From Epinephelus fuscoguttatus (Eukaryota > Chordata > Actinopteri > Perciformes > Serranidae): DNA of 64,000 bases. The stretch lies in the NCBI RefSeq assembly GCF_011397635.1, contig NC_064773.1, positions 27,751,449-27,815,448 of the forward strand, written 5' to 3'. Below the pieces are notes generated by a model. It was not told the DNA's origin. It saw nothing but the letters and a program-made list of their open reading frames with translations, and did no database searches. Below are positions 23,657 to 60,807 of this stretch, piece by piece (positions within the stretch are counted from its first letter, which is position 1; every line of letters starts with the position of its first letter). A program made the position numbers and the translations under genes.

Positions 23657-24601
23657 TTAGTAGTCCTTCCTGCAGATCCTCATAATAGTGGTTAACTTAT
23701 TTTTGTATTTTTTGTATTTCAGTTCTGCCTCCTTGGTTCTATATTTAATAAATTGCCTATGTAAGTGGTTTTTCTTTTTACAAGCATTTATCAGTCCTTT
23801 TGTTAACCATGGGCTGCTTGTACTTTTATTTTTCCGATTGACCTTTTTAAGTGGACAATTCTTATCATACATTCCTGTAAATATTTCTAAAAATTTATCA
23901 TAAGCTATATCTACATCATCTTCTTTCAAAACTGAATCCCATTTTTGAAGTAATAGGTCAGCTTTGAGTGCATTAACTGATTTTTCTGTTCTTATTCGTG
24001 TGTATTTGATATTTGATTTATCTTTCCTCAATCTATAGTTACGATCATACACCATGAAAACAGGTAGATGGTCACTAGTATCATTATACAAAAGCCCACT
24101 GACTATATTATTATATGCAATATCGGTAAATATATTATCAATCAAAGTGGCACTTTGCAGGGTTATCCTACTGGGTCTTGTAATTGCTGGAAACAAGCTC
24201 ATACAGAACATTGTATCAATAAAGTCCTCTGTTGGTTTGTGTTTCCTGGCATTTAGAAGATCTATGTTATAATCCCCACATATAAGTGAATCTTTCTGGG
24301 TGTTTGAAGAGAACAGCTTTTCCATCCCTTCCTTAAATACCTCTATATTTGCTCCAGGAGCCCTGTAAATACAGCTTACTATTATATTTTTCTGTTTTCC
24401 CATACATATTTCCACTGTTATAGAGTCATACACATCTTCCACAGCCACAGACATGTTTTCTATCACCTTGTAATCAAAGTTTTTGTCTATATATAGTGCA
24501 ACACCACCACCATTTTTACATTCCCTGTTTGTGTAAAACATTTCATACCCCCTAATTGCAAAATCTGTTCCTTTGCTTGATTTTAACCAGGTTTCAGACA
24601 T
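23657..24601 (-). pseudogene. LINE endonuclease region (EEP-type)
   Basis: A 314-codon open frame beginning at MSETWLK, a typical start within the endonuclease. It contains the NGGGVALYI, CIYRAPG, CGDYNIDLL and DTSDHLPVF motifs of the endonuclease/exonuclease/phosphatase fold, including the active-site Asp, Asn and His residues. The linker before the RT (WLTKGLINACKKKN) is also typical. It ends at one TAA that seems to replace a tyrosine-type codon, after which the same frame continues into the RT. Confidence 0.88.
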
Positions 24602-24790
24602 AGCTATTATGGTAAATGATGAATTAAATTGGTCCAGACAATATATTATAGAGTCATAATTTGCATAGAGACTTCTGCAATTAAAGTGTATAAGAGATAT
24701 TTTATTTTGCAGATCAATGCATTTATTACAATTTGTTTCTGAGTAATATTTACAGCTATGGTTAAATTTTGCATAGAAATTATTATAATT

Positions 24791-25557
24791 ATTGTTTGTT
24801 TTTTAACCTCTTAAGCAAAAGCAAATGCCACAGCCCTTCTTCTCTGTTTTCTCTGGTCATGTTGTGCTAGTTATAAATCTATTTACTACAGACAACCCGG
24901 TTTTATGAAAAGATCATCTTTAAAGCAGTGACATACTTCTTTACTGTAATTTATTTTGTAGTCATTGTATGCCCCCTAATTTTATTTAAGTACTTTTAAT
25001 TTTACGTAAGTGAACGTTCTTCAAAGTAAAAATACTTGGGTACAATATATTGTATACTGCATAAACAAAACCTATGTATAAAAGAAAACTGGAATAATAA
25101 TATGAAATGGAGATTAATTTTTATAAAAGTTCTCATACAATATTAGTGTGGATATGATATATGTGATGTGTGCCCACTGTCAATCACATGGTGAAGGTTT
25201 TTTTTTTTTTAACAGGAATAAAAACCATTGGACAAACGAGGGTTGCAAACAAAACTGTTTAATGAATATGCACTTCAAAAACATATGTTTGTTCAGCCTT
25301 TAGATGTCTGCTTGTTTTATGTAACAACCAATTGTAAGAATATAAGACTTTAGAGATGCCTCTAAAGCCAGTTATGGGCATCCAACATTCTTTTGGTTTT
25401 TTTTACATTCTTTAAAGGAATACCTCAATGATGGCCTGGCCTCTCAGCTACTCTTTCTGAGGTGTTACATAAAGAAGTTATTACAGTATAAAGAAAAATC
25501 AACCCTTGTAAGTGTGAAATAAACAACACAACCAGTATCTAAAAAAACAAAACTGAT
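24791..25557. other. Intergenic, no gene seen
   Basis: AT-rich sequence with short homopolymer runs between the LINE and the 3' end of the fibrinogen-domain gene. No exon, terminal repeat or RNA gene could be supported. Confidence 0.4.
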
Positions 25558-25649: not shown

Positions 25650-28600
25650 TCACACAGACTTGATCATCATTCTGGTGGCCCTCAGGGAGTATGGCGCATG
25701 AGTTTTCCAGGTTTCCCAGTGGAGGCCTGACGCCCAGCCGATATGGTCACCAGCAGGATGCCAGTCGCCATTCAGACTGGCGGATCCGCAGCGGCTGTAC
25801 CACCAGCCACCACCGTCTGACTGAGTACATTCCATGAGAGCAATGTCACCAAAGATGCATGGGGAGCAGCCGTCATTGTCACGGTCGGAGGTGCTGAAGC
25901 CGTAGCGGTTCTGGCTATGCATGGCGTCACCTTTGGGCAAAGATGGAACAAATTAAGGAATAATTGAGTTTAGAATTTAGAGTTTTGCTGAACATTGGGC
26001 ACAGTGACCAGAAGTTGCAGATGATGGCACCTTGAATTTCCCTGCATTTTTAAACATTCTCTTTGTGTTACATTTGTCCTAAAAACATTAAAATGTGTAT
26101 CTTTTGTATGCTAATATGTAGTGTCACTGCAGCACAACTATATATAGTATAGTATATACTCATAAAGCCAGTGAGCCTATTCAGTAATGTCACTTATACA
26201 GCTATATCTGGCTTAAGTTTGCCAACATTAGCTAACCTTAGCCACCATAAGCTACTGGTCATGCCTGACCAAGTAACACTGTAGAAGTAAAACCCCTGAG
26301 TGCAATACATTAAGGTGTATTTCATTACTTATGAATTAAACTTTTCATTAATAAGAGGAAAAAGTGTTGTTTCATCTTTAAAAGTACTGTCTCACATCAA
26401 ATCTCCCACGTGTAGCATTTTATGTGTAGATCAACACATCATTAATCTATACCAGAGCTGCAACGATGAATCGTTAACTATTAGAGTAATCGCCAACTAA
26501 TTTGCTCATCGATTAATCAGTTTGAGTATTTTTTTTAGAGAAAAATAAGTCAAACTTCTCAGATTTTAGCTTCGTAGATGTGAATACTTTCCAGTTTATT
26601 TACTCCTCTTTAACAGTGAACTGAATATCTTTGGGTTGTAGATAAAACAAGACATTTAACGGCGTCATCTTTTCACCATTTTCTGACATTTTATGGAACA
26701 AACAACTAATCAATTAATCAAGAAAATAATCAACAGAATAATCAACAGTGAAAATAATCATTAGTTTCAGCTCCGATCTTGACACATTATAATTGAGATC
26801 ATTCCTGAGAAGACTGCCAGCCCATAGCTGCTCTACACTTCTGCACCAAGGCTGGTTTAGAAGCTGCTGGACTGCTTTACACCACAAAACCGGAAGAGGG
26901 CGCTGCTGTATCACAGAAAACAGCTTAGACAGAGTTTGTGCTGACAGCAGATGGTGATGACAGGAGTGAAATTCAAAGGGGAAATCACTTTCAGTGCAAG
27001 TGGTGGAGCAATGATCTTCAACAAGTTGAAAATGTCATAACTGTAAGGACTAACGATATTAGGCCACTATTAGTGTCTGATACAAGCAACAAGCCACCTT
27101 TTAATGTGGACCCCAGGACAAGTAGTTTCAAAGGTAACAACAATAAATAATAAAACCTCCTTTTCTTTTCTTGTGCTGACACAATAACTTGACTTATTGT
27201 GACTTCACAATAACGTTGTTGTTCTGTTAGAAATTTCTGCACTGAGCAGCTTTCATTTCCAAGCATTAAAATGATAACGTACAAATAACAGTGGCAAAAA
27301 GATTATTCCAACCAGTCAAGCTGGCACCAGACGTTAATATGACATCATAAAAATGTTTTTTTTTTCTCATTTAGATGTAACACACGTTCAACAAGGTAAA
27401 ATCAGAAAAGAGAAACATTGCTTAACAAAATGTGGGGGTGTACAGGTGACACTCAGATGTAATGCAACATACATTGAATCTCATACGTCCATTGTATACA
27501 AGCCTTTCCAACTGCAGGCTACTATTGTGCTCAGACGGCAGAAATATGTTATTCTTGGTCAAGATGATGTTTGTAAGGTGTTGGAAGAACTTCAATTCAA
27601 CAAAATATCACCATCATCTGTCGTCAGTATTTTACGTCAAATCGACGTTGGCATTGACATTGAACTTTGGTCACTCAACATCACAGCCTAAATTTAACTA
27701 CATAGTAACATCTTACAACGTTGGTGCGCAGCTGGGAGTGCAGATGAAAGTGAAATACATGGAATAGCATCTGTGCATAAGCAGCAAAGAGAAAAGAGGG
27801 ACAGTGAGAGAAGCTAAAAAGCAGCTCACGATACCTGCGGTTCCACTGTATTTCCCCACATGCAGTCTGAAAGCTGCTTTTGCACCGCCCAATTTGAAGT
27901 GTGCGTACTCAGCAAAAGCAGTGTCATCTTCGTGGTCCCATAGGTCGACTCTCATGGTCCACTTCTTGTGTTTGTTCTTGGTCAGAGAGAAAACCTTTTG
28001 CAGACCAAGCCAGTGGTCACCTGAGAGAATCAGCATAACATAAGGAAAGGATAAATGTTTCTTTATGATACATCTTTGCTTTGAGTTGTTGCTGCAGGAT
28101 GAAGGGTTATAGGTCGCCTATAGGTTAGTCAGGAAAGAATTCAGGCACAGCTGAACGTTCAATCTTGCAGTTTAGTTTAGTTTTAGAGCTGGACTGTGTC
28201 AGCCTACGATTCAAAGATTATGCAGAAGAGCATATAACAGGAGAGTCTTTCCTCCTGCCAGTATCAAGGAAAAATTATGTCTTTATTTAATTCAGTTGAA
28301 CCCCTAATCCTCTGTGTGTCACAAGTCCTCTCTCATTCATTCAGTGTGCATTCATTAGTCTGCCATGTTTTCCACTTCACCAACTGTCACAAATGTCACA
28401 CCTACCTGTCCTCTGATTACCCCTTTTCTGACAGCCCTGTCACCTGGCCTGCTCTTACTTACCCTGATTGTGATAGATGCTGCCTGTTCTGTGTCTGTAA
28501 TCGTTACACTATATACTCTGTATGGTTTTTTGTTCTATGTAAGAAAGACCTGTCCAGGATATTTTTTTCAGTGTTACATAAGGCGTTAGATTACACCTCA

Positions 28601-34075: not shown

Positions 34076-37000
34076 TTACAAACTCTCCACTGTACAAATA
34101 GTTACAGAGCAGTCATTGTCCTCCATCCCGAACCCAGGGTAGAGGGGCTCAGTAAAAGTGCTGTAGAACGTGTAAAGGTGGCTGAGGGTCCCAGAGGAGG
34201 AGACGCTGTAGAAGGACAGAGTGCCACCCGACCAGTCCAGATACACTCCCACCCTGTGGGAGCGAGACGGAGGTGCTGAAATTTCCACAGACTGGTGGTC
34301 ATACTGAGCACTGTAGTGATCCTCAGAGCAGTACAGACTCCAGGACTGCTCTGTGTAGCCAAACCCACAGAGGTGAGAGCTCGCCCTCCGGTGGATCCCC
34401 TTCATCGCCACAGCGACGTCCACCCAGCGTCCTCGCCACTCCACTTCCCAGTAGTGGCGTTGGGTGAGGCCTTGGTGACACAGCACCTGGGAGACACTCT
34501 CGAACCTCTCTGGGTGATCTGGGTACTGCTGTCTCTCCCTGACCCAGGTCACCTGCTTTCTATCGTCGTACAGGAAGAGAGACCTGGCAGCTGTGTTTGC
34601 GTCCAAAGTCAGTGTACAGGCATCTGTATAAATCACAGACATGGCTATGTCAGTGTTCTTTTTAATCACAGTTTTTATTTCATAACAATGATGAGGTCCA
34701 AGCAGGAGACCACAGGGTTCCTGTGTTCCTGTTTGCCTTTCTCTCCCTGTGTTTTGTTTTGTCTGTGTATGCTGGCATGCGTGTGGTCTCTCTCTCTTGT
34801 TTCCCTGGTTCCTGGCTCTGTTCCTCATTCTCACCTGTCTCTCAGCTCATCTACATGCAGTATATCTCCTCCCACTCTTCAACCACTTATCAACAGATTG
34901 TTGTTCAACCTTTGTGGTTCACCACTACTGACCTGCCTAAAGAATTGTTGGTACTTGTTGTGGTCACATTTAAAGACATTGAACTCTTTGCAAAAATATG
35001 GAGTTGTCTTGTTCCAAGAAAGAAAGCAAGAAAGAAAGGCACTTAAGAAAGTGTTGGCCATTTAAGGGACAGAGAGACAGAAACAAACAAACCAGATCTG
35101 AGTCCACACTGTCACTTGGAAATAAATCTGTATTCTGCCATCTGCTGGACAAATGACACTACAACATGTCAAGCCAAAAACAACTGAAAAGCCAGACAGA
35201 CTGCAGCATGTATATGTCACATTTTTATGTGAGTGCAATCAAAACATTACTGAAACTACAACTAAATTCAAATGAAAACAAAAATATTAAAACAAAACTT
35301 AAACATTGGAAGTAAAAGACTTTGCTTGGTCAATTCAAAGATTATTTTAGAGGCTTGATTCAGTGCTGTAACAAGAAGAATTTATGTGTTGTTTCTATTT
35401 ATCAGAATCACTAACTTGTTTTTTAAAAAATGAGGATGGACCTGTTTTTTTTTTCCAAAGTGTCCAGATGTATATCTGTGACAGTGAAACCTGATCCTGA
35501 GCCTGCCGCTGCAACAACTGCAAAGCTTTTGAATGTCGTCTTCTGCCCACGTCACAGTTTGTTGCTGTTTGGTGAAATTAAAAAAGAATGAAAATTACAT
35601 AAATAGAAAATGCAGCACTTACAGTTTTTCAGTGTTGATTTCAAGTAGCACTCTGCATTATGATCCACACTGTGGGCAGGAGGATATACATACACACATA
35701 TTAGTAGACACATAATGAGGTTTTATGATAAATTATATCTGGCTTTTCTAACCAGATATTATACATGTGATATGTATATTATGTGTGCAGCTCATGAAAT
35801 AAAAAACAGATATTGCCAGATAAGTGAGTGGCAATAATAACCCCTATAAAGGGAACTTAATTGTTGCGCGAAACTTAGAACCACGGGACATGTTGCTTAT
35901 TCGAAGAAATACCCATCTTAGCAAAGCATGTGGTCTGATAATGTTTTTCACTTTATTTCTTTGAAAGAATTTTCTTAAATCTATTTTTTGGGCTTTTTGG
36001 TCAATTGTATTGTTGATACTACAGAACAAATGGTCTACCAGGAAAGATATAAGCCACCACCTAACACAATAAATCATTAGCAGGGACAGATTGATTTACC
36101 TGAGATTTTCCAGCTTACAGAGCGGGTCGTTCAAATGGACAGAGATCAGCTTCACGCCAGAGTCCTGCAGGTAGTTGTAGCTGAGGTCCAGCTGCCTCAG
36201 GTGAGAAGGGTTAGAGCTCAGCGCTGAAGCCAGGTAAGTGCAGCCTTTCTCTGTGACTCCACAGAACGACAATCTGTGTGGAAGCAGGGTATTGAATTCT
36301 TATCCCAAAACACATAATTTGCCTGTGGCTTTAAATGTAAAGCCAGCTCACCGTAACGCCTCCAGTTTACAGTCCGAAGTTGCCAGTCCAGCAGAGAGCA
36401 GATTCACTTCTGAGTCCTGCAGGTCGTTCCCGCTCAAGTCCAGCTCCTTCAGGAGGGAGGTGTCGGAGCTGAGGACGGACGCCAAATCAGCACTGCATTT
36501 CTGGAGACAGCACTCATTTAACCTGCAGGAAAGGACATGTTTTGGTTCAGGTGGCAGAGGTGTGGACTTGAGTCACATGACTCAGACTTGAGTCAGACTT
36601 GAGTTCTCCATTTAACTAACTTTAACGCTATTTCTTTTCAACAAGTCGACAGAGTTTTCCAGATGATCCACTGTGTATGAACCAGTCCGACAGCATCCAA
36701 TCAAGTTGCAGGAGAACCATCAAGACCTAACGTTACGTTACTCAGCAGAGGTTAGAAAAAATGCTACCAAAGACAGACAAAGGCTACACGGTGGTCAAGA
36801 AAGAAAGAAATTGCAGTATGCAAAACATGCATGTGGAAAATTAAAGATGCAACAACTTTCAACTTTGTTCAACATTCGAAGTTGTACAAGAACAGTATGT
36901 CCAGGCTAATATTAGCATAGTTAATGAGCTAATGCTTAGTTAAGATTAGCTTATAAGATACGTAAATTGCTTTACAAATAAACACAAAATTTAAAAAGGA

Positions 37001-40000: not shown

Positions 40001-43000
40001 CACCACAAATCTCTTAAATCCAAGATGGTGGACAGAATGCAAGAAATGTTGTGCTTCTCAGGATTATCTTGCCAATCCTTATATAATAGGGGACCCTTTG
40101 CAGGTAAATACAATTTGGTAATATCAAGTAACGTCTAATGAACAATACAGTTGTCAAAATTACAATGTATGGATTTTATGTTGGGAGGAAATTATGAACA
40201 ATCATCTTTTAACTAAACTGGATACCATGCAATGTTGGCTATATCTCAACTACAGTTAATACTACTGCAACTTTGTTGTTCTTGAAAATACTACATCTGC
40301 AGTGACTTTTTTGGCATTAAATTAATTGATGTGTGTTGTTAGAATGTGACTGGCATTTTTTATCACAAAAACAATATTGTGACAATATTATTGTTATTTT
40401 AGTTTAAAAAAAATAGTTCAATGGGGGGAAGTGTGGAGTCAAGAGGAAGAAGTTGAATGAGGGAGGGAGGGGGTACAGGAATGATGCAACACATTCACGC
40501 TGACCTTGACACATATTGACGTTTGGTCATGGACTTTCCAAGTCTACGTGAAAGATACCCTGGGTGCGTTGGTTAATAACAATCTGGGACGGTCAAGTTC
40601 TGCCTGTTACATGCATTGTCTTCTTTTAAAATACACTTCTGTTTCACAGGAAATTTATTTTTATTTATTTTTTTTTCTTTCAAAATAAACGCACTATGTT
40701 GGTACAACAACGCAAATGCATTTTTTTTTCCTTCAATAACTAACGCACATGGTTGGGCTTAGGCAACAAAAGCACGTCATTGGGTTTAGGAAAAAAGAAC
40801 AGGGTTTGGCTTACTATAAACAACACAGTAAGATTGTTAGAGACTGTTAGAGACTGAACAACGGTCTCCCAGGTGAAAATAGCATCCAGTCAGTGTTTGG
40901 CTCTTTTTTTTCCCTTCAATAACTAATGCATGCTGTTGGGTTAAGACAACAAAAACACTTGGTCACATTTAGGCACAAAAACACATGGTTGGGTTGAGGA
41001 AAAAAGAAGAGGGTTTGGCTTTATAATCTTGCGGGACACAAACAACAGTCTCCCAGGTGAAAGTCACGTCCAGTCAGTGTTTGACCTTTTTTTTTCCTTC
41101 AACAACTAATGCATGTTGTTGGGTTTAGGCAACAAAAGCACGTGGTGGTGTTTTGGAAAAAAGAAGAGGGTTTGGCTTTATAATCTTACGGGATGCAGAC
41201 ACACGCTCTACCGGATGACAGTCAGTGTTTGTTGGACGTACCCACCACCCCTCCCTCACAACTTGGAGTTTCGCCACCTTAACTTTCATTCTTGTACTGC
41301 CACGTTTCTCCCTGACATTGTCTAGTGTTGTTAAACTATAACGGCAACCAGCCACACATATCATGCCAACCTTAAAGGACAGTTTTTTTCCTCAGTGGCT
41401 GATGCCACAAGGCCAAGAGAGGGATTTCGACAACTTCGGAGTGACAGTGGGTTGAGAGAGGAGTAGAAGAAGAGTGGAAAATGTGTTAAAATATTTGAAC
41501 CGACTAGTTTAACAGCATTAAAAATATATTTTTTATAGTTTTACATAATATATGTTTAAAAGAAATGAACTTAATTTTTCTTTTTCATGACTAAAAAGGA
41601 ATAAAGACATTTACGAAAAAAATCTTGACCAATGTAGTAACAATTCATGCATGAAGGGGTTAAAAATATTAATCATGAATAAATTCAAGTCCAAGCAAGT
41701 GATTTAAATTTGTCAGCAAGAAGAAGGTCTAACCTGATTGTTTCTAGTTTGCAGTGGTGGCTGCGCAGTCCCACACATAGAGCCTTCACTCCTGCTTCCT
41801 GGAAGTCATTAGTACTCAGATCCAGTTCTCTGAGTTGGGTAGACTCTGTGCTGAGAGCAACAGCCAGTGCCGCACAGCAGGCTCCTTCGAGTTTACACTT
41901 GTGTAATCTAATAAAAGGGGCAATAAAAAGGTCTTTTAATATTCTGAATTGAACAATAGCAAGTGGACTGCATTTAATTCAATAGCAATTATGACAGCAA
42001 ACCGCAGTAAACCTAAACCACAGGTCTTTTAACCACATGAAGTGGTTGTTTGCAGGATTATGACTTATGATTATAAGTTTATGACTGTAACTATTGTTAC
42101 AGACCTTAAAGTCCTTAGTTTACAATGTGGGCTCCCTAATCCAACAGCAAGCAGCTTCACCCCTGAATCCTTCAGGTTGTTGTCACTCAGGTCCAGCCCT
42201 GTCAGGTGAGAGGAAGTTGAGCTCAGCGCGGAGGCCAACATTTCACAGCAGTTCTCAGAGAGGTTGCAGCGATTTAGCCTGGAAAAACAAACAAACACAT
42301 TTTCTTTCTTAATGGGAACATAAAGTGCTCAGGTCAAAGTCTGAGAAAAGCTGCACAGAAATGTAATTTGTTTGTTTATAGAGCAACTAAAACCAACATG
42401 CAAGAGGAACACTGTTATCCTGTGGGTAAACTCACAGAGCATGTGTGGAGGAAGTAATGACAGTCAGCAGCTTCACTACCCCTTCTTCTGATCTTATGTA
42501 CTTCTTCAAGTCAAACTTCTCTGTCGCCTCTGATGTCATCAGTTCAAAAGTGAGAGCAGACCACTGGACCGGAGACAGCTTTTTGGGCTCAAGCCTCCCA
42601 GAACTCACAAAGCTCTGGATCTCCTGCACCAAGGACTCCTCTCTGAGCTCACTCAGGCAGTGGAAGAGGTTAAGCTTGGCCTCTGGTTCCTCTTTGATCT
42701 TCTCCTTGATAAACTGGATGGTTCTCACCACATCTTCCTCTCCCTCAGCTTCCAAAGGCAGTATTCTACCCAGGAGCTCCTGGTTTGGCTTCAGTGACAG
42801 TCCAAGGAGAAAGCGGAGGAAGAGGTCCCAGCGGCCGTCAGGGCTCTCCAAGGCTTTTTCGATGGCAATCTTGTGAAAACTGAACACAGACTTGGGGAAC
42901 CATCTTGTAGATATTCTTTTCAGGTATCCAAGGAGGACGTTTTCCTTTCTTTGCATGTAGGAATGACGGGCGTACACAGCTGCCAGAAACTCCTGGATGG

Positions 43001-44708
43001 TTAAATGTACAAAGCTGAAAACTTCTCCCCTCCTTTTGCCCTCCATCACAAAGACCTCTGTGCAAACTCCAGAATAGACTGTTGCCTCTTTGACATTGAT
43101 GCCACACTCTTTCAAGTCAGCCTCGTAGAAGATCAGTTTGCCTTTCTCCAGTTGACGGAACGCTAGCTCTGCTAGCTTCAAAACTACATTGTCACTTGTC
43201 ATTGGGTAGTGCCCTTCTTTCATCCGGTCTGTCTGGCAGAGAAGGAGGTACGCGTACATCTCGGTCAGGGTGTTGGGCATGCCTCCTGTCACATTGTCAT
43301 GCAACATTTTCTTCATTACGGTGACTGTGATCCAGCAGAACACTGGTATCTGACACATGATGTTGAGGCTTTTTGATGACTTCACATGGTTGATGATTCT
43401 GATGGCAAGGTTATCATCGCGCAAACGCTTCTTGAAGTACTCCTCCCTCTGTTCATTAGCGAAGCCCTTCACCTCTGTCCACTGGTGGATGTGCTTTCGA
43501 GGGATCCGGCTACCTGCCGCAGGTCTGGACGTGATCCAGATGAGAGCGTTGCCGAGCAAATCTCCTGTGATGAGGTTGGTGATCAGCACATCTAGCGAGG
43601 CCGGCTCGGTCTCATCTCTCAAGACCTTGTTGTGCTTGAAGTTCAGGGGAAGTAGAGTCTCGTCCAGGCCGTCGAAGATGAAGAGGACTTTGAATTCTGT
43701 TCCCAAAGTCTCAATTGGTTTCATCTCAGGGAAGAACTGATGGAGCAGCTGCATCAGACTGTAGTCTTTCTCGCCAATGTTGGGATTCAGCTCACGGAAA
43801 GGAAGCGGGAAGAGGAAGGTGATGTCTTGATTTTCCTCCTCTTCCGCCCAGCTCAAGGTATACTTTTGTGTGCAGACAGTTTTACCCACTCCGGGTATAC
43901 CCTGGGTAAGCACGGTTCTGATCTGCTTCTCTTGGTTGGGCTTAGGTTTGAAAATGTCACTAGCTTTAATGGACGTTTCTTCTGTCGTCACATGGTTGGA
44001 CCTCTGCTGTCTGACCTCATACTCCTCGCTAAAGCCTCCCCAGGATCCTTCAATCACATGCAACTTGGTGTAGATTTTGTTCAGGTAGATGTTGTCTCCT
44101 TCATCTGCATTCCCTTCATAAATGTTTTGGTATTTTTTCCTCAGGGTGAGTTTCAGTTTTTCTTGGATTGCACTAGGGCCAGTTTCTGTTCAAAGAATAA
44201 ATTATAATTCCTCATTCCATTTTAGTTTTGTACAGTTCAATCTTATGTCTGTATGTCTGGAAAATAAAATATAACTTGATTGTGTGTGTAGGCATGTTTT
44301 TATGTTCTTACCTTTGCCTTCTTGATTGCTCGGAGCTGATAAGGACAGAAAGAGAAGAGATCGTTGTAACATGGCCAAGCTGTTTTTCCTTATAAACTAA
44401 CTACAGAGTCACAATTTGTATTTTATACATGTTTTACCTTCCTCGTACTTCTTCTTCAGTGTTTCAGCCCACAGATTGAGTTTCATTCTCATCAATATAT
44501 CCACAGTGACTGTAACAGCACCATTATAGCCATAAGTCTGCACCAAAAGATCCACAGTGCCCGGCCTGTCTGCCCCATCGACCCGAGCCCTTGGAATATG
44601 AGGGAATCCTTCGAGAACATTGCTGTAAAGGAACCACTGGAGAGTCCTCAGGTCTTTATCAACCAGCTCCTCCAAAGTGTCCAAGAGCAGCACGGGCACA
44701 CATGCCAT
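34076..44708 (-). CDS. NLRC3-like receptor: pyrin-like domain, FISNA-NACHT, LRR, B30.2 (complete)
   Basis: Minus-strand exons: 44708-44438, 44335-44312, 44185-42436, 42278-42105, 41907-41734, 39829-39656, 37507-37337, 36522-36352, 36273-36100, 35669-35623 and 34623-34076. All joins are GT-AG and in phase, 3,678 nt (1,225 aa). Residues 1-90: death-fold (pyrin-like) adaptor domain with [18 protein letters not shown]. About 100-165: FISNA segment. 194-201: Walker A GIPGVGKT. 267-274: Walker B FIFDGLDE. Then winged-helix and NACHT-associated parts up to about 680. Six LRR exons of 171 or 174 nt carry the ribonuclease-inhibitor type repeat ([16 protein letters not shown]). A 47-nt linker exon leads to PRY/SPRY (B30.2, about 1044-1225). 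Expected role: cytosolic nucleotide-dependent sensor of the fish-expanded NLR group, possibly signalling through pyrin-domain adaptors. No frame damage is seen. The ligand is unknown. Confidence 0.92.
34957..35440. other. Last NLR intron segment shared with 47843-48690
   Basis: This intronic stretch contains an (AAAG)n-like run at about 35018-35040 and is followed by sequence similar over ~400 bases to 48290-48690, including CAAATGACACTACAACATGT and CAGCATGTATATGTCACATT. The shared intronic sequence identifies the second region as descended from a related NLR gene. Confidence 0.7.
37992..39132. mobile_element. 1.1-kb DNA transposon (GGGCTCTAGTTTC termini) in an LRR intron
   Basis: The left end GGGCTCTAGTTTC and the right end GAAACTAGAGCCC are exact inverted complements at 37992-38004 and 39120-39132. 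The interior is GC-rich and CpG-rich compared with its surroundings, with several GGCGCAGC/TGCCAAAC words near both ends. No transposase frame can be recognised; frames there are short and overlapping. AAA flanks both ends, too little for a superfamily call. Confidence 0.8.
40733..41260. repeat. Three tandem copies of a ~183-bp repeat
   Basis: Units begin at about 40733, 40915 and 41101, each with ACTAA(C/T)GCA(C/T), GGGTTTAGGCAACAAAAGCA-like, GAGGGTTTGGCTTTATAATC and TCTCCCAGGTGAAA words, diverged by point changes and small indels. They lie in an NLR intron between the second and third LRR exons. A related word (GGTTTAGGCACAAAAACCAC) recurs in the SELENOO duplication near 52780 and 57570. 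Confidence 0.8.
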
Positions 44709-48735: not shown

Positions 48736-50229
48736 GCCTTCTTTGAAATTTAGTGGACTCAAGAGTACAATATTTGTCTTTCAAATGGAGTGGAGTCAAA
48801 GTTTCCAAAGAAATAACTCAAGTAAAGTACAGATACTCAAGTACTGAAATGACAGTACATTGTTACTGCCCATCACTGGTTAAAACACCAAATAAAGTAA
48901 TGTCATGTCTTTCTAGCCCAGCAACTGCTAATGTGTGAGCACTTTTTTTCATTGATAACCTAAGACCCAGATGTTCAGGTGGTTTTCACTGTGAGCAGAG
49001 GTCTCTTCCTCTCCAAAACAAACACATTAGGTGATTTAGATGAGTAAAAACAATCATTTGCTCATTGTGGAGGGGCTTTTACATATTGAAGCAGATACGA
49101 AAACATGAATGACCCTATCTAAAGCCAGTGTTTGGTTTGTTCATTCTGGGCTTCTGCAGAAACATGGCAGTGCAATATGGAAAGGAAAACACAAGAATTC
49201 TTATCGCTCCCAGAATTAAAGACTAAAGAAAACATACTTGTTACGACACAGGGATCATCACAATACTTATCATATTATATTCCATTTTTGCCAGTATATC
49301 CCCATAAATCTTACATACTGGACCTTTAAAATACTGAGCTCATGCCAAATGTGTGTAGGATTGAAACAAACCTTGCAATTTACACACTTTGTGATAAACA
49401 GCATGTGATCTTTTATTTCAAACTTCATGAGAATGTTAGACGTAAAATCCCAACAATCATTTTACATTTCCTAGTTACAGTAGCTTCAAAAAAATAATGG
49501 TAATCAGTGTTCGCATATCTATGACTTGACACATTGACTTTATGAGTCCACTTTCTGTAATTAATTGATGTCAGTGTGTTCCTGGTGTTTCAGGCCCAGA
49601 CAGGTCATCGTGTGACTGGTCATCTGAGCCATCATACTTCATCAGCAAATTCATTGACTACTTGTAAGGATTCTGTCAAATTTAGTCAAATTGAACGTAA
49701 GGAACACAGTCTATGTATTACTCTTCAACAGCTTTAAACACTGAAATAAAATCATTATGATCACACAAACAGATCTATGAACAGGCTGATAAACCCTGGA
49801 ACACACTTGGTTATATAACATCCTCCTTTCAGGGAGCAGGAAAGAAAGTCTGAGGTGGGAGTGGAGAGCAGCAACAGTAGTAGCAGTCAGCCACATCTTG
49901 TTTGCTCTGAAATGGTCCACCAGTGGAAACAGACCTCTCTCCTTAACTTGTCTGGGAGGCTCTAAGATGATCAGGTGATACAAATCCTTTGTGCCCAGGC
50001 AGGAGGTTTCCTGTTGTAGGCAGGCTCTCTCATGTTCTGCTCCTTTTCACCACACGCATTAAGTCCATCCAAAGGCTCCGGCCCAACTGCATCAGAATAT
50101 GGTGTCTCCAGAGCTTTGAGGACCCTGTTGACCTGGTACAGATAGGGTTACTTCTGTTAGTCCTTGAAAATAGGATTCAAATTGCTCTCATAGAAATACA
50201 AAATCAAAATTGCTCTAGACAAACTCCAC

Positions 50230-50355
50230 TGAGACATCCCAGTCCATGTGAGGGTCCTAAGGACGGAGGGATGCTGTAAAGCCCTGTGAGGCAAATTGTG
50301 ATTTGTGATATTGGGCTTTATAAATAAAATTGACTGATTGATTGATTGATTACTG
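50230..50355 (+). mobile_element. SINE/LINE 3' tail in unit 1
   Basis: The CTGTAAAGCCCTGTGAGGCA block followed by TTTATAAATAAAATTGAC and a (TGAT)n tail is the familiar 3' end of a fish retroposon. An identical copy is in unit 2 at about 55030-55150. The head of the element is not defined. Confidence 0.65.
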
Positions 50356-51212
50356 TCTGTCCCACTGATGGCTTTTTGTCTCCACCTAGTGGCCAACTCA
50401 GATATAGTGTCTCACATTCACAACCCTGTCCTCCTCCCTTTGAGGGCAAGTGTTGGCTAACAACTCTCTGGGGAGAACCCTGTGAAACACTACTGAACTC
50501 CATGTTGCCTTTTATATCAGCTGTAATGGATCTAGATGTCCCAATGGAGATTTTGACAAAGTCAGAGACATTCATAGGACTCCTGACCTCCGAGAAATCT
50601 CCCTTTTCTGCAACCTGAATTGCATTCTGGGCGATGTAGTTGCGTAGGACAACTTGGGGGTTGGTGTTGTTCATCACACTGAGCCTCTCCTTTTTGATGA
50701 GAGACAAGTCACGTGTGCCATCACACTCCCTGGCTAAACGCCTCCTGGTTTTTCAGTGCAAGAGAGATTGGTAAAGAAAAGTAAATTAGTTGATTCATCT
50801 CATAGGGAAATAGATATCATATATGCTGGAATCACATATGTCATACATATAGTGGAGTGCCATATATGTGCATTTTCAAAATTGAAAGAATTTTGTATAT
50901 GTATGAATATCACATATTCTAACATCACTGGGTTCAAGTACACATATACACTACTATGTTAGTGCCATATACGTAACTGTACAAAACTAATGAATTTGGG
51001 TCATGTTTGTGGCCACCAAGAAATTTTTCACTCTCCTTTTAGCTCTATTTTGGTCCCCACATAGTCCTTAAAGCTGGGGAAGGGAGTTTTATTTTGGCAT
51101 CACTAGGCAAAAAAATCCATAATAAACTTAGAGCAACTTAACAATTTAAGTGAACTCAGAGAAAACCCTGCTGCTGCAACCACCTCACCAGGAGGAGGCA
51201 GCAGCTCCGGAG

Positions 51213-52080
51213 CAGTGTTGCCAAGTCTGCTTATTATAAACAACTTTGGGCTTGTTTTTCTGTAAAGTCACTGAAAATATCGGTAGTCGCGAGTCGCATT
51301 TTTTTTGGGCATTTCTAAAGCGTAGTTGCTTATTTGGGCTTGTTCCCAGCTCCATAATAAGTTGTCAAGCAGATATTTTCGATATGTTATTTAAACGTAG
51401 GATAGTTTGTCTTGCCTGTTCCCTCTGTCCCTCCCCTTTCCCCATACACACAGGAGACAGCAGAGTTTTTTCCCACCCGCATCCTGCTTCTAATTGGCTC
51501 TGACCCTGATGGCAACGAGTACTAGCCAATCAGAGGCAGAGCAGGGTAATGTGTTTTTTTTTTTCTGGTTAGGAAAACGTCAGTCCTGTAATTAAAAGAA
51601 AAAAGTTAGATGAGTGCATAAAAAGCAATAATAAATAAAGAATTTGTGAATTCAGGATATTTATTTGTGTGTGCAAATTTTAATGATAAGAGGTCTACTG
51701 TGTATATAATGTACTTGGTACATCAGTCTATATTTGATATCCCACCTGTTTTCTAATGTTAATTAATGTTAAAAGGTAGTTTAACTCCCTCTTGTGGTCA
51801 TTGTCCTGAAGCTCAGGGGGGAGAAAAATAAATAAACTGTGTACCATGGGTACAGTTTTGCAAAACTGCGCGCAGTTTACTTATCTGTCCACATGGATGT
51901 AAATTGACAATCTGTACCCACAGTTTAAAATTCGTCCCCACAGACTGTAAAACCATGCACACACTTTATTTAATTTTCTCTCACTGGAACCTAGGGGAGC
52001 TCCGTAGAAAAAGTTGCTTGTTTTGGGCTTGTTTTCACAGGCCTGGTTGCTTATTTGTCTCACGAGATCTGGCAACACTG
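51213..52080. mobile_element. hAT-like MITE (CAGTGTTGCCAA), unit 1 copy
   Basis: The ends CAGTGTTGCCAAGTCTG and ATCTGGCAACACTG are inverted complements. The flanks CTCCGGAG and CCCTGGAG form an imperfect 8-bp duplication. The GTTGCTTATTTGGGCTTGTT word near the left end recurs near the right end. It sits in the intron between SELENOO exons 50744 and 53002. Confidence 0.75.
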
Positions 52081-52659
52081 CCCTGGAGAAGGACACCAAG
52101 CCAGCGGTTGCAGCAACCCAATTCCAGCCAGTACAAGCCCCCCTCCAGGGGACGGTACAGCCCCAACTACCTGCCAGATTAGTAAACTTTTGGTTGCGGC
52201 CATGAGCACACTGTGACACCTGGTGCTGGGGAGTTTTTCCTCCCAATGAAGCAGTTCACAGTGGCCAGGAGTGAGGTGAAGGTTACATGGGTTCGCTAGG
52301 TAGCTAATTCTTGTCTCATTTGCAGTCTGCGCGTGCATATGACTGTGGTCATCTAATGGGAGGGGCTTGGGAGAGAGAGGTGAGAGCTGCAGGACGTGAA
52401 TGTATTTTTTTGTCTTTCCACATTTCTGCCTGCCCCTGCTTTGAGGGAAATATCCAGCTCTTCTGCTGAATGTTGCACTACATTCAAAAGCTAACTGCTA
52501 ACTTTATCTGCTGTTTGGTGCTAAGCAGGTAGCGTGTAGTGGGTTCATCAAATGTCTTTTATTGAAAACAGCTGCCTTGTTGTGGGCAGCGGAACCAAAA
52601 CCTAAAAAGATAAGACACTCCTGAGGGGAACTTAGAAATCTATCTCTTTTACTTGGGAA

Positions 52660-52985
52660 CTGCCCATTGGTTCGACAGCCCATTGGTCCAACAGCCCATT
52701 GTTCTGACCATATTAAACTCATTGTTCCGAAGTCCATTCCGAAATCATCAAGATGTCCTGTGGTTAAGATCTGGTTAGGTTTAGGCACAAAAACCACTTG
52801 GTTAGGGTCAGGAAAAGATCATGGTGTGGGTTAAAATGAAAAAGAAAGTGGCAAACACATAAGCCGTGAGCCTGCTCCGCCTCAAGCCGGTCGCGGCGCA
52901 CCATATGCCCGCCGTGAGTTGTTCAGCACCGCGGACAGTCGGACTAATGGGATGTCGAACCAATGGGCTGTCGAACCAATGACAT
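52660..52985. repeat. Foldback repeat with AACCAATGGGCTGTCGAACC words, unit 1 copy
   Basis: CATTGGTTCGACAGCCCATT at the left is complementary to AATGGGCTGTCGAACCAATG at the right, with additional shortened units on both sides. The centre holds GGTTTAGGCACAAAAACC and a CpG-rich block. The unit 2 copy is at about 57455-57780. Confidence 0.7.
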
Positions 52986-54200
52986 GGACCCTTTTACTTA
53001 CCTGTATCGGCTAACCCAGCAAATCCAGTCATCGCGCTGCTTTTTCTTAAGCTCATCCTGATCTGTCTCGAGCAGCTCCTTTAGCCGTCCCATCCGTTCC
53101 AGTTGCTGAGACACAGCTGGACTGTCTGCCACCATCCCAAACATCACTGGGTTGGTTTGTGCCATGGACAGAATCATCGCCAGCTCACTAGAAAAGGAGA
53201 GAATGCTAGAGGTAAGTGATGTTAACCACAACTCTGGTGCTCTCAACATAAATCCTACCAAATGTTACAAGACACACATTTCACTTACATATTGTCTTGG
53301 TTAGATTTTTCCCCAAAATGCTAGCATTTAAAAGGAAATACAAATTAGATGAGGAGAGAGATTCAGTCATTTGAACTGTGCACTACTCAGACTGGATTAA
53401 ATGCACATTTTTTTTAGGAGTATATGGTGGGGCAGCTAGAGACAGTTTGTTCTTATAATACAGTAGCTGCTCACACACATGTATCCAACCACCATACACT
53501 CCCTCACCGGTCCTCCATAGTTGGCTTATTAGCCACCTTAAGCTCCTCAATAGAGGCACACTGCTCTAGGATGAGGTCCACTAATGGCCCCACTGTGGCC
53601 CTCTCATTCTCGCCCTCCTCAGGCCAGGGGACATGGCTCAGCAGGCGGAAGGTGTTGGTGAAATCTGCACCTAGAAACACATTATATTATAGCACCATGC
53701 CAAGACTGCAGAAGCATTACCAGGAAAAGTTTTCCTGACATTTCCAACTTTGTCTCATAACTATTTGTACCAGTGTTGTGCATGAGGCGCAGCAGGTCTG
53801 ATATGAGCTCGCTGTCCTCTGCCTCTTCTTTTCTCACAAGGCCCAGTTTTTTTCTCATGATACACAAGTAGAAGGCTTCATATGCTGGCATGAATTCATC
53901 CAGGACAGCCCCTGCCTCAGCTGCATCCAGCTCAGAGCCCAATGCCTCTGCCAGACAGGTTCCAGCAACACACAGATGGTTGGGCTTGATAGGAGTAGCG
54001 CCCTCTCTTGTCAGAGGAGTTGCAAACGAAATCTGGATCAAATCTGAAACACGGGTGGAAAAGTTTTCATATATAATATCATATGAGTAATTATATAATG
54101 TGTACAATGTGTATATTTTTCCTTAATGTATGTCCAAACAGACTGTAATCTGATTAACCATTTCACTAAGGCAGAGCTGAAATTGTTTTTAAGTTTAACT

Positions 54201-57200
54201 CATGTGATCTTTTATTTCAAACTTCATGAGAATGTTAGACGTAAAATCCCAACAATCATTTTACATTTCCTAGTTACAGTAGCTTCAAAAAAATAATGGT
54301 AATCAGTGTTCGCATATCTATGACTTGACACATTGACTTTATGAGTCCACTTTCTGTAATTAATTGATGTCAGTGTGTTCCTGGTGTTTCAGGCCCAGAC
54401 AGGTCATCGTGTGACTGGTCATCTGAGCCATCATACTTCATCAGCAAATTCATTGACTACTTGTAAGGATTCTGTCAAATTTAGTCAAATTGAACGTAAG
54501 GAACACAGTCTATGTATTACTCTTCAACAGCTTTAAACACTGAAATAAAATCATTATGATCACACAAACAGATCTATGAACAGGCTGATAAACCCTGGAA
54601 CACACTTGGTTATATAACATCCTCCTTTCAGGGAGCAGGAAAGAAAGTCTGAGGTGGGAGTGGAGAGCAGCAACAGTAGTAGCAGTCAGCCACATCTTGT
54701 TTGCTCTGAAATGGTCCACCAGTGAAACAGACCTCTCTCCTTAACTTGTCTGGGAGGCTCTAAGATGATCAGGTGATACAAATCCTTTGTGCCCAGGCAG
54801 GAGGTTTCCTGTTGTAGGCAGGCTCTCTCATGTTCTGCTCCTTTTCACCACACGCATTAAGTCCATCCAAAGGCTCCGCCCAACTGCATCAGAATATGGT
54901 GTCTCCAGAGCTTTGAGGACCCTGTTGACCTGGTACAGATAGGGTTACTTCTGTTAGTCCTTGAAAATAGGATTCAAATTGCTCTCATAGAAATACAAAA
55001 TCAAAATTGCTCTAGACAAACTCCACTGAGACATCCCAGTCCATGTGAGGGTCCTAAGGACGGAGGGATGCTGTAAAGCCCTGTGAGGCAAATTGTGATT
55101 TGTGATATTGGGCTTTATAAATAAAATTGACTGATTGATTGATTGATTACTGTCTGTCCCACTGATGGCTGTTGTCTCCACCTAGTGGCCAACTCAGATA
55201 TAGTGTCTCACATTCACAACCCTGTCCTCCTCCCTTTGAGGGCAAGTGTTGGCTAACAACTCTCTGGGGAGAACCCTGTGAAACACTACTGAACTCCATG
55301 TTGCCTTTTATATCAGCTGTAATGGATCTAGATGTCCCAATGGAGATTTTGACAAAGTCAGAGACATTCATAGGACTCCTGACCTCCGAGAAATCTCCCT
55401 TTTCTGCAACCTGAATTGCATTCTGGGCGATGTAGTTGCGTAGGACAACTTGGGGGTTGGTGTTGTTCATCACACTGAGCCTCTCCTTTTTGATGAGAGA
55501 CAAGTCACGTGTGCCATCACACTCCCTGGCTAAACGCCTCCTGGTTTTTCAGTGCAAGAGAGATTGGTAAAGAAAAGTAAATTAGTTGATTCATCTCATA
55601 GGGAAATAGATATCATATATGCTGGAATCACATATGTCATACATATAGTGGAGTGCCATATATGTGCATTTTCAAAATTGAAAGAATTTTGTATATGTAT
55701 GAATATCACATATTCTAACATCACTGGGTTCAAGTACACATATACACTACTATGTTAGTGCCATATACGTAACTGTACAAAACTAATGAATTTGGGTCAT
55801 GTTTGTGGCCACCAAGAAATTTTTCACTCTCCTTTTAGCTCTATTTTGGTCCCCACATAGTCCTTAAAGCTGGGGAAGGGAGTTTTATTTTGGCATCACT
55901 AGGCAAAAAAATCCATAATAAACTTAGAGCAACTTAACAATTTAAGTGAACTCAGAGAAAACCCTGCTGCTGCAACCACCTCACCAGGAGGAGGCAGCAG
56001 CTCCGGAGCAGTGTTGCCAAGTCTGCTTATTATAAACAACTTTGGGCTTGTTTTTCTGTAAAGTCACTGAAAAATATCGGTAGTCGCGAGTCGCATTTTT
56101 TTTGGGCATTTCTAAAGCGTAGTTGCTTATTTGGGCTTGTTCCCAGCTCCATAATAAGTTGTCAAGCAGATATTTTCGATATGTTATTTAAACGTAGGAT
56201 AGTTTGTCTTGCCTGTTCCCTCTGTCCCTCCCCTTTCCCCATACACACAGGAGACAGCAGAGTTTTTTCCCACCCGCATCCTGCTTCTAATTGGCTCTGA
56301 CCCTGATGGCAACGAGTACTAGCCAATCAGAGGCAGAGCAGGGTAATGTGTTTTTTTTTCTGGTTAGGAAAACGTCAGTCCTGTAATTAAAAGAAAAAAG
56401 TTAGATGAGTGCATAAAAAGCAATAATAAATAAAGAATTTGTGAATTCAGGATATTTATTTGTGTGTGCAAATTTTAATGATAAGAGGTCTACTGTGTAT
56501 ATAATGTACTTGGTACATCAGTCTATATTTGATATCCCACCTGTTTTCTAATGTTAATTAATGTTAAAAGGTAGTTTAACTCCCTCTTGTGGTCATTGTC
56601 CTGAAGCTCAGGGGGGAGAAAAATAAATAAACTGTGTACCATGGGTACAGTTTTGCAAAACTGCGCGCAGTTTACTTATCTGTCCACATGGATGTAAATT
56701 GACAATCTGTACCCACAGTTTAAAATTCGTCCCCACAGACTGTAAAACCATGCACACACTTTATTTAATTTTCTCTCACTGGAACCTAGGGGAGCTCCGT
56801 GAAAAAGTTGCTTGTTTTGGGCTTGTTTTCACAGGCCTGGTTGCTTATTTGTCTCACGAGATCTGGCAACACTGCCCTGGAGAAGGACACCAAGCCAGCG
56901 GTTGCAGCAACCCAATTCCAGCCAGTACAAGCCCCCCTCCAGGGGACGGTACAGCCCCAACTACCTGCCAGATTAGTAAACTTTTGGTTGCGGCCATGAG
57001 CACACTGTGACACCTGGTGCTGGGGAGTTTTTCCTCCCAATGAAGCAGTTCACAGTGGCCAGGAGTGAGGTGAAGGTTACATGGGTTCGCTAGGTAGCTA
57101 ATTCTTGTCTCATTTGCAGTCTGCGCGTGCATATGACTGTGGTCATCTAATGGGAGGGCTTGGGAGAGAGAGGTGAGAGCTGCAGGACGTGAATGTATTT

Positions 57201-58998
57201 TTTTGTCTTTCCACATTTCTGCCTGCCCCTGCTTTGAGGGAAATATCCAGCTCTTCTGCTGAATGTTGCACTACATTCAAAAGCTAACTGCTAACTTTAT
57301 CTGCTGTTTGGTGCTAAGCAGGTAGCGTGTAGTGGGTTCATCAAATGTCTTTTATTGAAAACAGCTGCCTTGTTGTGGGCAGCGGAACCAAAACCTAAAA
57401 AGATAAGACACTCCTGAGGGGAACTTAGAAATCTATCTCTTTTACTTGGGAACTGCCCATTGGTTCGACAGCCCATTGGTCCAACAGCCCATTGTTCTGA
57501 CCATATTAAACTCATTGTTCCGAAGTCCGTTCCGAAATCATCAAGATGTCCTGTGGTTAAGATCTGGTTAGGTTTAGGCACAAAAACCACTTGGTTAGGG
57601 TCAGGAAAAGATCATGGTGTGGGTTAAAATGAAAAAGAAAGTGGCAAACACATAAGCCGTGAGCCTGCTCCGCCTCAAGCCGGTCGCGGCGCACCATATG
57701 CCCGCCGTGAGTTGTTCAGCACCGCGGACAGTCGGACTAATGGGATGTCGAACCAATGGGCTGTCGAACCAATGACATGGACCCTTTTACTTACCTGTAT
57801 CGGCTAACCCAGCAAATCCAGTCATCGCGCTGCTTTTTCTTAAGCTCATCCTGATCTGTCTCGAGCAGCTCCTTTAGCCGTCCCATCCGTTCCAGTTGCT
57901 GAGACACAGCTGGACTGTCTGCCACCATCCCAAACATCACTGGGTTGGTTTGTGCCATGGACAGAATCATCGCCAGCTCACTAGAAAAGGAGAGAATGCT
58001 AGAGGTAAGTGATGTTAACCACAACTCTGGTGCTCTCAACATAAATCCTACCAAATGTTATAAGACACACATTTCACTTACATATTGTCTTGGTTAGATT
58101 TTTCCCCAAAATGCTAGCATTTAAAAGGAAATACAAATTAGATGAGGAGAGAGATTCAGTCATTTGAACTGTGCACTACTCAGACTGGATTAAATGCACA
58201 TTTTTTTTAGGAGTATATGGTGGGGCAGCTAGAGACAGTTTGTTCTTATAATACAGTAGCTGCTCACACACATGTATCCAACCACCATACACTCCCTCAC
58301 CGGTCCTCCATAGTTGGCTTATTAGCCACCTTAAGCTCCTCAATAGAGGCACACTGCTCTAGGATGAGGTCCACTAATGGCCCCACTGTGGCCCTCTCAT
58401 TCTCGCCCTCCTCAGGCCAGGGGACATGGCTCAGCAGGCGGAAGGTGTTGGTGAAATCTGCACCTAGAAACACATTATATTATAGCACCATGCCAAGACT
58501 GCAGAAGCATTACCAGGAAAAGTCTTCCTGACATTTCCAACTTTGTCTCATAACTATTTGTACCAGTGTTGTGCATGAGGCGCAGCAGGTCTGATATGAG
58601 CTCGCTGTCCTCTGCCTCTTCTTTTCTCACAAGGCCCAGTTTTTTTCTCATGATACACAAGTAGAAGGCTTCATATGCTGGCATGAATTCATCCAGGACA
58701 GCCCCTGCCTCAGCTGCATCCAGCTCAGAGCCCAATGCCTCTGCCAGACGAGCCAGGTTCCAGCGACACACAGATGGTTGGGCTTGATAGGAGTAGCGCC
58801 CTCTCTTGTCAGAGGAGTTGCAAACGAAATCTGGATCAAATCTGAAACACGGGTGGAAAAGTTTTCATATATAATATCATATGAGTAATTATATAATGTG
58901 TACAATGTGTATATTTTTCCTTAATGTATGTCCAAACAGACTGTAATCTGATTAACCATTTCACTAAGGCAGAGCTGAAATTGTTTTTAAGTTTAACT
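54201..58998. repeat. Tandem duplication unit 2 (proximal copy, intact exons)
   Basis: This is the unit adjoining the single-copy SELENOO exons. It ends near 58998, where the shared sequence (AAGTTTAACTCA) gives way to unique DNA. It carries the intact reading frame of the duplicated exons. The unit 2 copy of the hAT-like MITE is at 56009-56874. Confidence 0.95.
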
Positions 58999-60807
58999 CA
59001 AGTGGTGAGCTGAAAAATGAAGGAAATGCAGAGGTGCCAAAAACTGCAGTTCCACTAATGGCCACTAGAGGCTGGCTCCAAAAGCAAGTCAAACCCAAAA
59101 GACACCCATGTTAAAACGTCAAACTTTACAGTAGAAATAAACATGTTTTCAGCCTGGTACAAAAACCGGTTTTGGTCTCTATAGCTAATTTCAACATTCT
59201 TGACAACTGTACAGAGATAGAATTTTTATATAACTCACGTATTTAAATTTTACTGAGGCTTAAATTTATGTATAATTAATTAAGGGCGGGGCCACATTGA
59301 GTGACAGGCTGTCTGTGAGGTGTCACCACAGTCTTTGAGTCAGATCCACCCCTCACTTTTCCACAGCTCCACCCTTCATCCAAGTATGGTCACTTCTGGC
59401 TCCAAAAATCCAAGATGGCAACAACGGAAATGCCAGACTTGAAGCAAGAAATGGGAATCCACAAAGCAATACGTGATGTCATGGTGGCTATGTCCATTCT
59501 CTTATGCATTCTATGGTCAATGCATCTATCCATATTAGAATACCCAACTTTACAATGGAAATCAACATATTTACAGGCTTCTACAATTAACGGTTTTGGT
59601 CTCGGTTTCCACAAGCAAAAAATTAGCATTAGCATTATCTTTGTTAACCATGGCTGTAAATGCACTGTGTTGACTAAGCTAGCATCTACCATACTAACTT
59701 TGCGTATTTTAAGGCTCAAAGTTATGCATAATTAATTGAGAGCGGGCGCTTTGAGAGTCAGGCTGTTTATGAGGTGTCACCATAATCTCTGAGTCAGATC
59801 CAACTCTCATTCCTTCACAGCTCCACTCTTTGCCGAAAAAAAAACAAGGTGGCGACAGCCAAAATGCTGAACTTGAGGCTTTAAAATGGGAGTCCACAAA
59901 CCAGTGGGTAACATCAGCTGCATCCATTATTTTTATGGTCTATGGTGAACTTTATTGAGACAAGCTTGGGAAACAGTTCTTCAGATCGGGAGTAATCTAA
60001 GAGGAAAACGCTAAGAGGACACTCTGGTCAAATAAATAAATGCACTTCCACTCTCAGCAGCCTACCTGTCCATGAAACCAAAGGGCCCATAATCCAGAGT
60101 GAGACCCAAGATGCTCATGTTGTCTGTGTTAAGGACACCATGGCAAAAACCAACACACTGCCACTGGGCCACTAGTTTAGCAGTTCGCATCATCACCTGG
60201 GAATAAATAGGTCAAATCTGAGGATCAGAATGCAAAAAGCACCAACATAAAATGAACCAACCTAAAGAGAGACAAAGCCTTAAACAGCGTCTGTCATTAT
60301 TAGCACTCATCTTATTAACACGTCGATCCTCACCTCTCTAAAGAAAGCCATATTCCTGTCTTTCCGGTCACTATGAGCCTGATGGATGCAAGGATAAAAA
60401 GTCTCAATGACGTAATCCAGCAGCTGAGCACGAATGTCATGCCGCCCTGCACTGGGACCCTGCAGACCTGAGAAATCATCACGGCCTAGAAAGATCTCAA
60501 AAGAACCAAATCTGAAACAAAAAATAAAATGTCGATATTTGTCACAAATAGCACTACAGTCAATTTTTTGTGTGTGCCTGTAAAGACTTTAAATGTTTCC
60601 TACCTGATGAAGGAAGGGGCGACACGCAGGACGACTGAGCAGCGCTCAGAAATGCGCCTGCCACTGTTGAGTGGATCTCTGCTGACGTAAAGGTCAGAGG
60701 TCACAAGGGAGGCTGCACGGGTGCTGGGTATCCCCAGGGCAGCCATGGCCTCGCTGCATAGGAACTCCCTGATGCTGGAGCGAAGCACTTTCCTGCCATC
60801 GCCATCT
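54510..60807 (-). CDS. selenoo: Selenoprotein O (protein AMPylase), partial: N-terminal exons outside the window
   Basis: Exons: 60807-60604, 60511-60334, 60196-60066, 58841-58564, 58463-58301, 57980-57795 and 55540-55384, all GT-AG and in phase (about 432 codons of a protein usually near 650). Signature: [32 protein letters not shown], then the catalytic region [16 protein letters not shown] with metal/nucleotide-binding Asp and Asn, and [10 protein letters not shown], the DFG-like box, in kinase-fold terms. Later exons carry [10 protein letters not shown] and [11 protein letters not shown]. Characterised SelO proteins AMPylate substrates in mitochondria (bacteria use the same fold) and end in a Cys-x-x-Sec motif. 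Here the last exon is uncertain: 54539-54510 would add CLKLLKSNT and a stop, with no Sec codon. I found no UGA in a VTUSS-like context and no SECIS. The intron upstream of the first exon holds a Harbinger element. Confidence 0.88.
56009..56874. mobile_element. hAT-like MITE (CAGTGTTGCCAA), unit 2 copy
   Basis: Same element and flanks as at 51213-52080, present because it pre-dates the duplication. It differs by short homopolymer and single-base changes. Confidence 0.75.
59030..59940. repeat. Two diverged direct copies of a ~450-bp repeat
   Basis: About 59040-59480 and 59490-59935 share the order: TTTACA(G/A)T(A/G)GAAAT, AACCGGTTTTGGTCTC-like, CATAATTAATT, GTCAGGCTGT, GAGGTGTCACCA, GAGTCAGATCCA, CACAGCTCCAC and a final AAGATGGC/AAGGTGGC block. 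They are much diverged from one another. They lie in a SELENOO intron. Confidence 0.7.

Follow-up and report, generated by a model that had tools for sequence, protein, structure and literature searches.

Five 3' exons of the selenoprotein O gene SELENOO2 occur twice, head to tail and almost letter for letter, in the stretch of Epinephelus fuscoguttatus DNA analysed here (64,000 nucleotides, referred to below as the window). On balance we favour a tandem duplication of exons 5-9 that is genuine and very recent, in which the upstream unit would have stayed functional and the downstream unit would be decaying. Self-BLAST of the 64-kb window returned a direct, abutting repeat pair (49402-54206 against 54201-59004) with 99.605% identity over 4811 columns. 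The runner-up by score, an inverted pair, spanned 493 columns with 87% identity, which excludes chance as the source of the 4.8-kb direct pair. The outer flanks of the two units are unrelated to each other, with 34% and 26% identity over 50 bases. These results confirm the near-identical tandem repeat of 3' exons that a first-pass annotation had read from the letters alone, and a head-to-tail direct repeat between unrelated flanks is what is looked for in a real duplication. In a same-strand scan of 154 kb that included the window, these units formed the only pair of at least 300 bp at 97% identity or more, although 18 of the scanned pieces were only ~2.8 kb long and thus too short to hold such a pair. 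The window contains no N, and neither do the 84 kb around the pair (49 kb leftwards and 25 kb rightwards).

The gene belongs to the SelO family, as the earlier annotation had proposed, but it is the SELENOO2 paralogue and not plain SELENOO. A first protein comparison turned up fish proteins named selenoprotein O or O2, with selenoprotein O2 of Scomber scombrus (84%) as the best match. A longer query matched selenoprotein O2 of Epinephelus lanceolatus (P0122) with 99% identity over all 485 residues queried, and the next-best proteins reached 88-89%. The domain PF02696 is present on nearly all listed homologues, while the window's own SelO exons were identified by protein matching, exon by exon. 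An extra SelO named SelO2 has been reported in zebrafish (PMC3316567). The SELO2 described in PMC3281104 is a different paralogue that is not a selenoprotein, and the two names must therefore be kept apart. The duplicated block consists of exons 5-9, here called a to e, and exons 1-4 lie outside it, with exon 1 falling just beyond the window (~64675-64241 in window numbering). Where the earlier annotation had counted four or five shared exons, we find five in both copies, and the exon edges that it had placed at 57,795, 55,540 and 50,744 are exactly correct. In both units exons a-d are bounded by AG acceptors and GT donors, and exon e begins at the same point. The coordinates are collected in Table 1.

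Table 1. Positions of the duplicated units, SELENOO2 exons and associated elements in the window
Feature	Positions	Strand	Remarks
Unit 2, promoter-proximal (upstream) copy of the five 3' exons	54201..59004	-	self-BLAST, unit alignment
Unit 1, downstream copy	49402..54200	-	self-BLAST, unit alignment
Unit junction	54197..54206	.	right-end joined to left-end sequence, CA common at the break, no N
SELENOO2 exon 2	60604..60807	-	outside duplicated block
SELENOO2 exon 3	60334..60511	-	outside duplicated block
SELENOO2 exon 4	60066..60196	-	outside duplicated block
Exon a (5), unit 2	58564..58841	-	intact, 278 bp
Exon b (6), unit 2	58301..58463	-	
Exon c (7), unit 2	57795..57980	-	
Exon d (8), unit 2	55384..55540	-	
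Exon e (9, last), unit 2	54201..54929	-	one G fewer near 54877, frameshifted
Exon a, unit 1	53771..54043	-	273 bp; 5 bp fewer near 53955, Arg to Cys (53967), frameshift
Exon b, unit 1	53508..53670	-	
Exon c, unit 1	53002..53187	-	
Exon d, unit 1	50588..50744	-	
Exon e (last), unit 1	49402..50132	-	intact end
SECIS-like motif ATGA..AA..TGAC, unit 1 (predicted)	49570..49608	-	loose pattern match
SECIS-like motif, unit 2 (predicted)	54369..54407	-	same 39 letters, loose pattern match
AATAAA of unit 1	49412..49417	-	four TGT, two GTG 10-60 nt downstream
AATAAA of unit 2	54211..54216	-	10 nt before junction; zero TGT, one GTG 10-60 nt downstream
Interspersed repeat, intron c-d of unit 1	51213..52081	.	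~870 bp, also in unit 2

The sequence around the block holds several other genes and elements. An open exon of 585 residues at 42435-44189 (-) belongs to a fish NLR, with FISNA, NACHT, NOD2 winged helix and NLRC4 HD2 domains, and a PRY-SPRY exon at 34079-34846 (-) may come from a gene of the TRIM or NLR type. A gene of the NXPE family, with Neurexophilin and NXPE4_C domains, has exons at 14608-17930 (+), and a LINE with endonuclease and reverse transcriptase and one in-frame stop lies at 22712-24802 (-). At 11538-13160, 272-bp inverted repeats that are 99.3% alike flank a DDE_3 match (11706-12113, -) below the curated cut-off, perhaps marking a Tc1-like DNA transposon. There is also a Fibrinogen_C exon at 27716-28117 (-); one database SelO model of Hucho hucho (P0080) likewise carries PF00147, perhaps because the two genes are neighbours.

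Inside the units we counted 13 events of difference, which bears out the earlier estimate of roughly a dozen: five substitutions, seven indels of 1-2 bp and one indel of 5 bp. One of the five substitutions (50375) is part of a complex T5 / TGTT site beside a short indel. The other four are clean, all of them transitions, and together with the 5-bp indel they fall within 52736-53967 (1231 bp); two of these four are of CpG type, with CpA in unit 1. All seven short indels fall in the 2.4 kb from 49925 to 52362. Clustering was modest for the five clean events (p ~0.018) and weaker for the four substitutions alone (p ~0.055) or the seven indels (p ~0.067). Clean events and short indels are perfectly separated along the unit, with a label permutation p of ~0.0025 for classes that were chosen after seeing the data. 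Substitution divergence amounts to 4-5 in 4.8 kb, or ~0.1%.

If indels make up between 1/6 and 1/5 of events in ordinary mutation, 8 indels among 13 events are in excess (p ~0.0003-0.001), so some of the short indels are probably consensus errors in at least one unit. Such errors would be expected in a sequence with poor read support, and to that extent they speak against the favoured reading. Six of the seven lie in homopolymer runs of two or more, and unit 2 is the shorter in six of the seven. Their direction could be examined through the repeat in intron c-d, of which the genome has at least 38 other copies (88-94% identity). We compared the units with 18 of these copies. Seventeen of the 18 carry a base that unit 2 lacks at 52006, and at 51273 unit 1 has one base less than 17 of them, indicating single-base losses in both units. 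The 11/9 T run was uninformative for this purpose, and the repeat does not extend to 52362. Read most simply, the short indels would for the most part be consensus errors, made where the units are alike and short reads cannot be assigned to one of them, and the transitions and the 5-bp deletion would be genuine differences. The earlier annotation was thus right to single out the single-base indels, but in taking them as a sign of an assembly or allelic origin it asked too much of them: they mostly argue for consensus errors, and they do not decide between a real and a false duplication because short-read polishing would be expected to fail on either.

A full reading frame is absent from each unit as assembled, whereas the exons upstream of the block (1-4) have open frames. 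In exon e of unit 2 the frame shifts after ...YSDAVG and meets a stop at 54830-54828, with loss of the selenocysteine end. In unit 1 the 5-bp frameshift and the Arg-to-Cys change lie 12 bases apart in exon a, and placing the unit 1 exons straight after exon 4 leads to a stop after 207 residues. Counted from exon 2, unit 2 with its own exon e encodes 465 residues, and unit 2 joined to exon e of unit 1 encodes 485 residues followed by TGA-S-S-stop; adding the 145 residues of exon 1 gives 610 and 630, respectively, and P0122 has 630. The combinations that stay in frame to the selenocysteine codon are exons a-c of unit 2 with d-e of unit 1, or a-d of unit 2 with e of unit 1. At exon a P0122 matches unit 2, at exon e it matches unit 1, and both coding defects therefore look derived. 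Four amino-acid differences from P0122 are common to both units, which implies that the units split, or were homogenised, after the two grouper lineages parted. At the changed Arg site, 224 of 234 aligned SelO proteins have a residue, namely Arg in 145, Gln in 31, Lys in 21, Leu in 10, His in 9 and others in eight; the affected Arg is thus common but not invariant.

Exon e of unit 1 ends ...AQRICIT-TGA(Sec)-S-S-stop, with the TGA at 49973-49971. It therefore retains the CxxUxx C-terminal end (C-I-T-TGA-S-S-stop), a motif of selenoprotein O described in PMC3281104 that is absent from the frameshifted unit 2. The candidate SECIS is one of three loose pattern matches per unit, with its AA 14 nt from the ATGA; Rfam returned no SECIS match at the gathering threshold, nor when two stretches of unit 1 were searched with E values as high as 10. 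Beyond the two AATAAA hexamers the G+T content hardly differs (0.52 in unit 1 and 0.46 in unit 2). The TGT triplets are lost beyond that of unit 2, and on this ground the upstream poly(A) site is predicted, weakly, to be the poorer. The claim that the gene has two 3' ends is unsupported as assembled, for the upstream end is out of frame and the sequence downstream of its poly(A) signal has changed. Similarly, the block boundary was said to coincide with a polyadenylation signal. An AATAAA does lie near the edge, but the hexamer is 10 nt inside it and is cut off by the break from what comes after the hexamer in unit 1. The boundary therefore does not mark a clean end of the gene.

The junction itself (54200/54201) joins two unrelated ends. 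The unit ends, CATGTG and CAAGTG, are alike at five of six bases, and by our own estimate the CA shared at the break is within chance for an arbitrary join. If the duplication is real, end joining or template switching would be its likely origin, because the flanks offer no homology to recombine. Non-allelic homologous recombination between repeats is ruled out by the same absence of homology (34% and 26% over 50 bases), and a retrocopy is ruled out because introns are kept and a poly(A) tract is absent at the junction. An old, grouper-wide duplication is disfavoured by the four residues that differ from giant grouper in both units, a pattern that later gene conversion could mimic. An interspecific hybrid assembly would be unlikely at 0.1% divergence.

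The strongest competitor to a real duplication, which we nevertheless consider unlikely, is a false heterotype duplication, in which the units are two alleles of one locus placed side by side in a haploid assembly. Divergence of ~0.1% lies inside the range of grouper heterozygosity, reported as 0.07% in E. lanceolatus (PMC10418399) and 0.309% in E. cyanopodus (PMC9775623), and thus fits alleles as well as it fits a young duplication. In three older vertebrate assemblies, moreover, between 4 and 16% of the sequence was found to be false duplications, some of them on the same scaffold, and false exon gains within one gene are described among such errors (PMC9516828). According to that paper, a false duplication can be recognised by half depth, by a gap that separates the pair, by discordant reads and by single-copy k-mers, and its main cause is high haplotype divergence. 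The characteristic gap is absent here, with no N in 84 kb, and an error tied there to relatively divergent haplotypes agrees poorly with substitutions at ~0.1%, a level at which an assembler would hardly have kept haplotypes apart. Moreover, both clean coding differences, the frameshift and the residue change 12 bases from it, sit on one copy. Were the allelic explanation true, the 5-bp frameshift would be a null allele of selenoprotein O2.

Among 41 matches scored in the 26-contig, 1,046,998,120-base assembly (40 of 2576 candidates), the first part of the unit (49402-51212) occurs at these two places and neither as a further copy nor as a stray haplotig elsewhere, although a short partial copy could have escaped this search.

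We consider it improbable that the assembler or a gap filler laid one sequence twice, with the second copy built from a few error-bearing reads (a false homotype duplication). The short indels would suit such an origin, given their number, their preference for homopolymer runs, the shorter unit 2 and their restriction to 2.4 kb of the unit, and both polarised 1-bp indels are deletions, one per unit. The clean transitions and the 5-bp deletion, however, resemble real variants and not read errors, and no N lies nearby.

It is very doubtful that the duplication is real and that both 3' ends are used, the upstream end giving a short form that lacks selenocysteine and splicing into unit 1 giving the full selenoprotein. 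Such use would accord with the two exon combinations that remain in frame to Sec, with an upstream end that alone yields 465 and not 485 residues from exon 2, and with the loss beyond the AATAAA of unit 2 of the four TGT seen after that of unit 1. It requires the missing base of unit 2 to be real, and that stretch is rich in suspected base errors. We attach equally little credence to its extension, that a newborn duplication has split the ending of the gene, with a broken upstream end and a weakened upstream poly(A) site, a selenocysteine form that could arise only by splicing to the downstream copy, and a form lacking selenocysteine made from the upstream one.

Between a real exon-block duplication and two placed haplotypes, the alternatives left by the earlier annotation, the evidence leans to a real young duplication on account of the gapless junction, the 84 kb free of N, the substitutions, which are few for haplotypes that were kept apart, and the two defects 12 bases from each other in the copy that would be redundant. 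It is possible that contigs were joined at the junction without an N. Under the young duplication, unit 2, which is nearer the promoter, would probably still supply the end of the gene, and unit 1 would be redundant and decaying, which may explain why its exon a carries both the 5-bp frameshift and the change from Arg to Cys. The seven indels of 1-2 bp, including the base missing from exon e of unit 2, are probably in most cases consensus errors left behind because near-identical copies resist polishing. As the break falls between the AATAAA and the TGT stretch, some transcripts are predicted to read on into unit 1, and these could then splice to its intact selenocysteine exon.

Literature searches on SelO2 names, on SELENOO with fish and duplication, and on grouper selenoprotein tandem duplication found no published report of the duplication. 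If it is real, a partial-gene tandem duplication has been caught at ~0.1% divergence, with its fate unsettled and with a recoded stop codon in its last exon. If it is false, it provides an example of an artefact that mimics a gene with two 3' ends and spoils the SELENOO2 annotation of the assembly. In both cases the finding is a local one and its type is familiar.

The E. lanceolatus protein P0122 resembles the gene described here in its 99% identity over 485 residues, in its C-terminus (...AQRICIT before the selenocysteine codon) and in exon 1 (144 of 145 residues). It differs in that the sequence of exons 5-9 occurs once in the protein and twice in our DNA, a comparison of protein against DNA. 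The false exon gain described in PMC9516828 is alike in having a near-identical exon block twice in one gene on one scaffold, and unlike in that the present case is without a gap and has low substitution divergence. An ordinary partial-gene tandem duplication, as generally known, shares the head-to-tail copy, the unrelated flanks and the minimal number of shared junction bases, whereas the present one is known from a single assembly.
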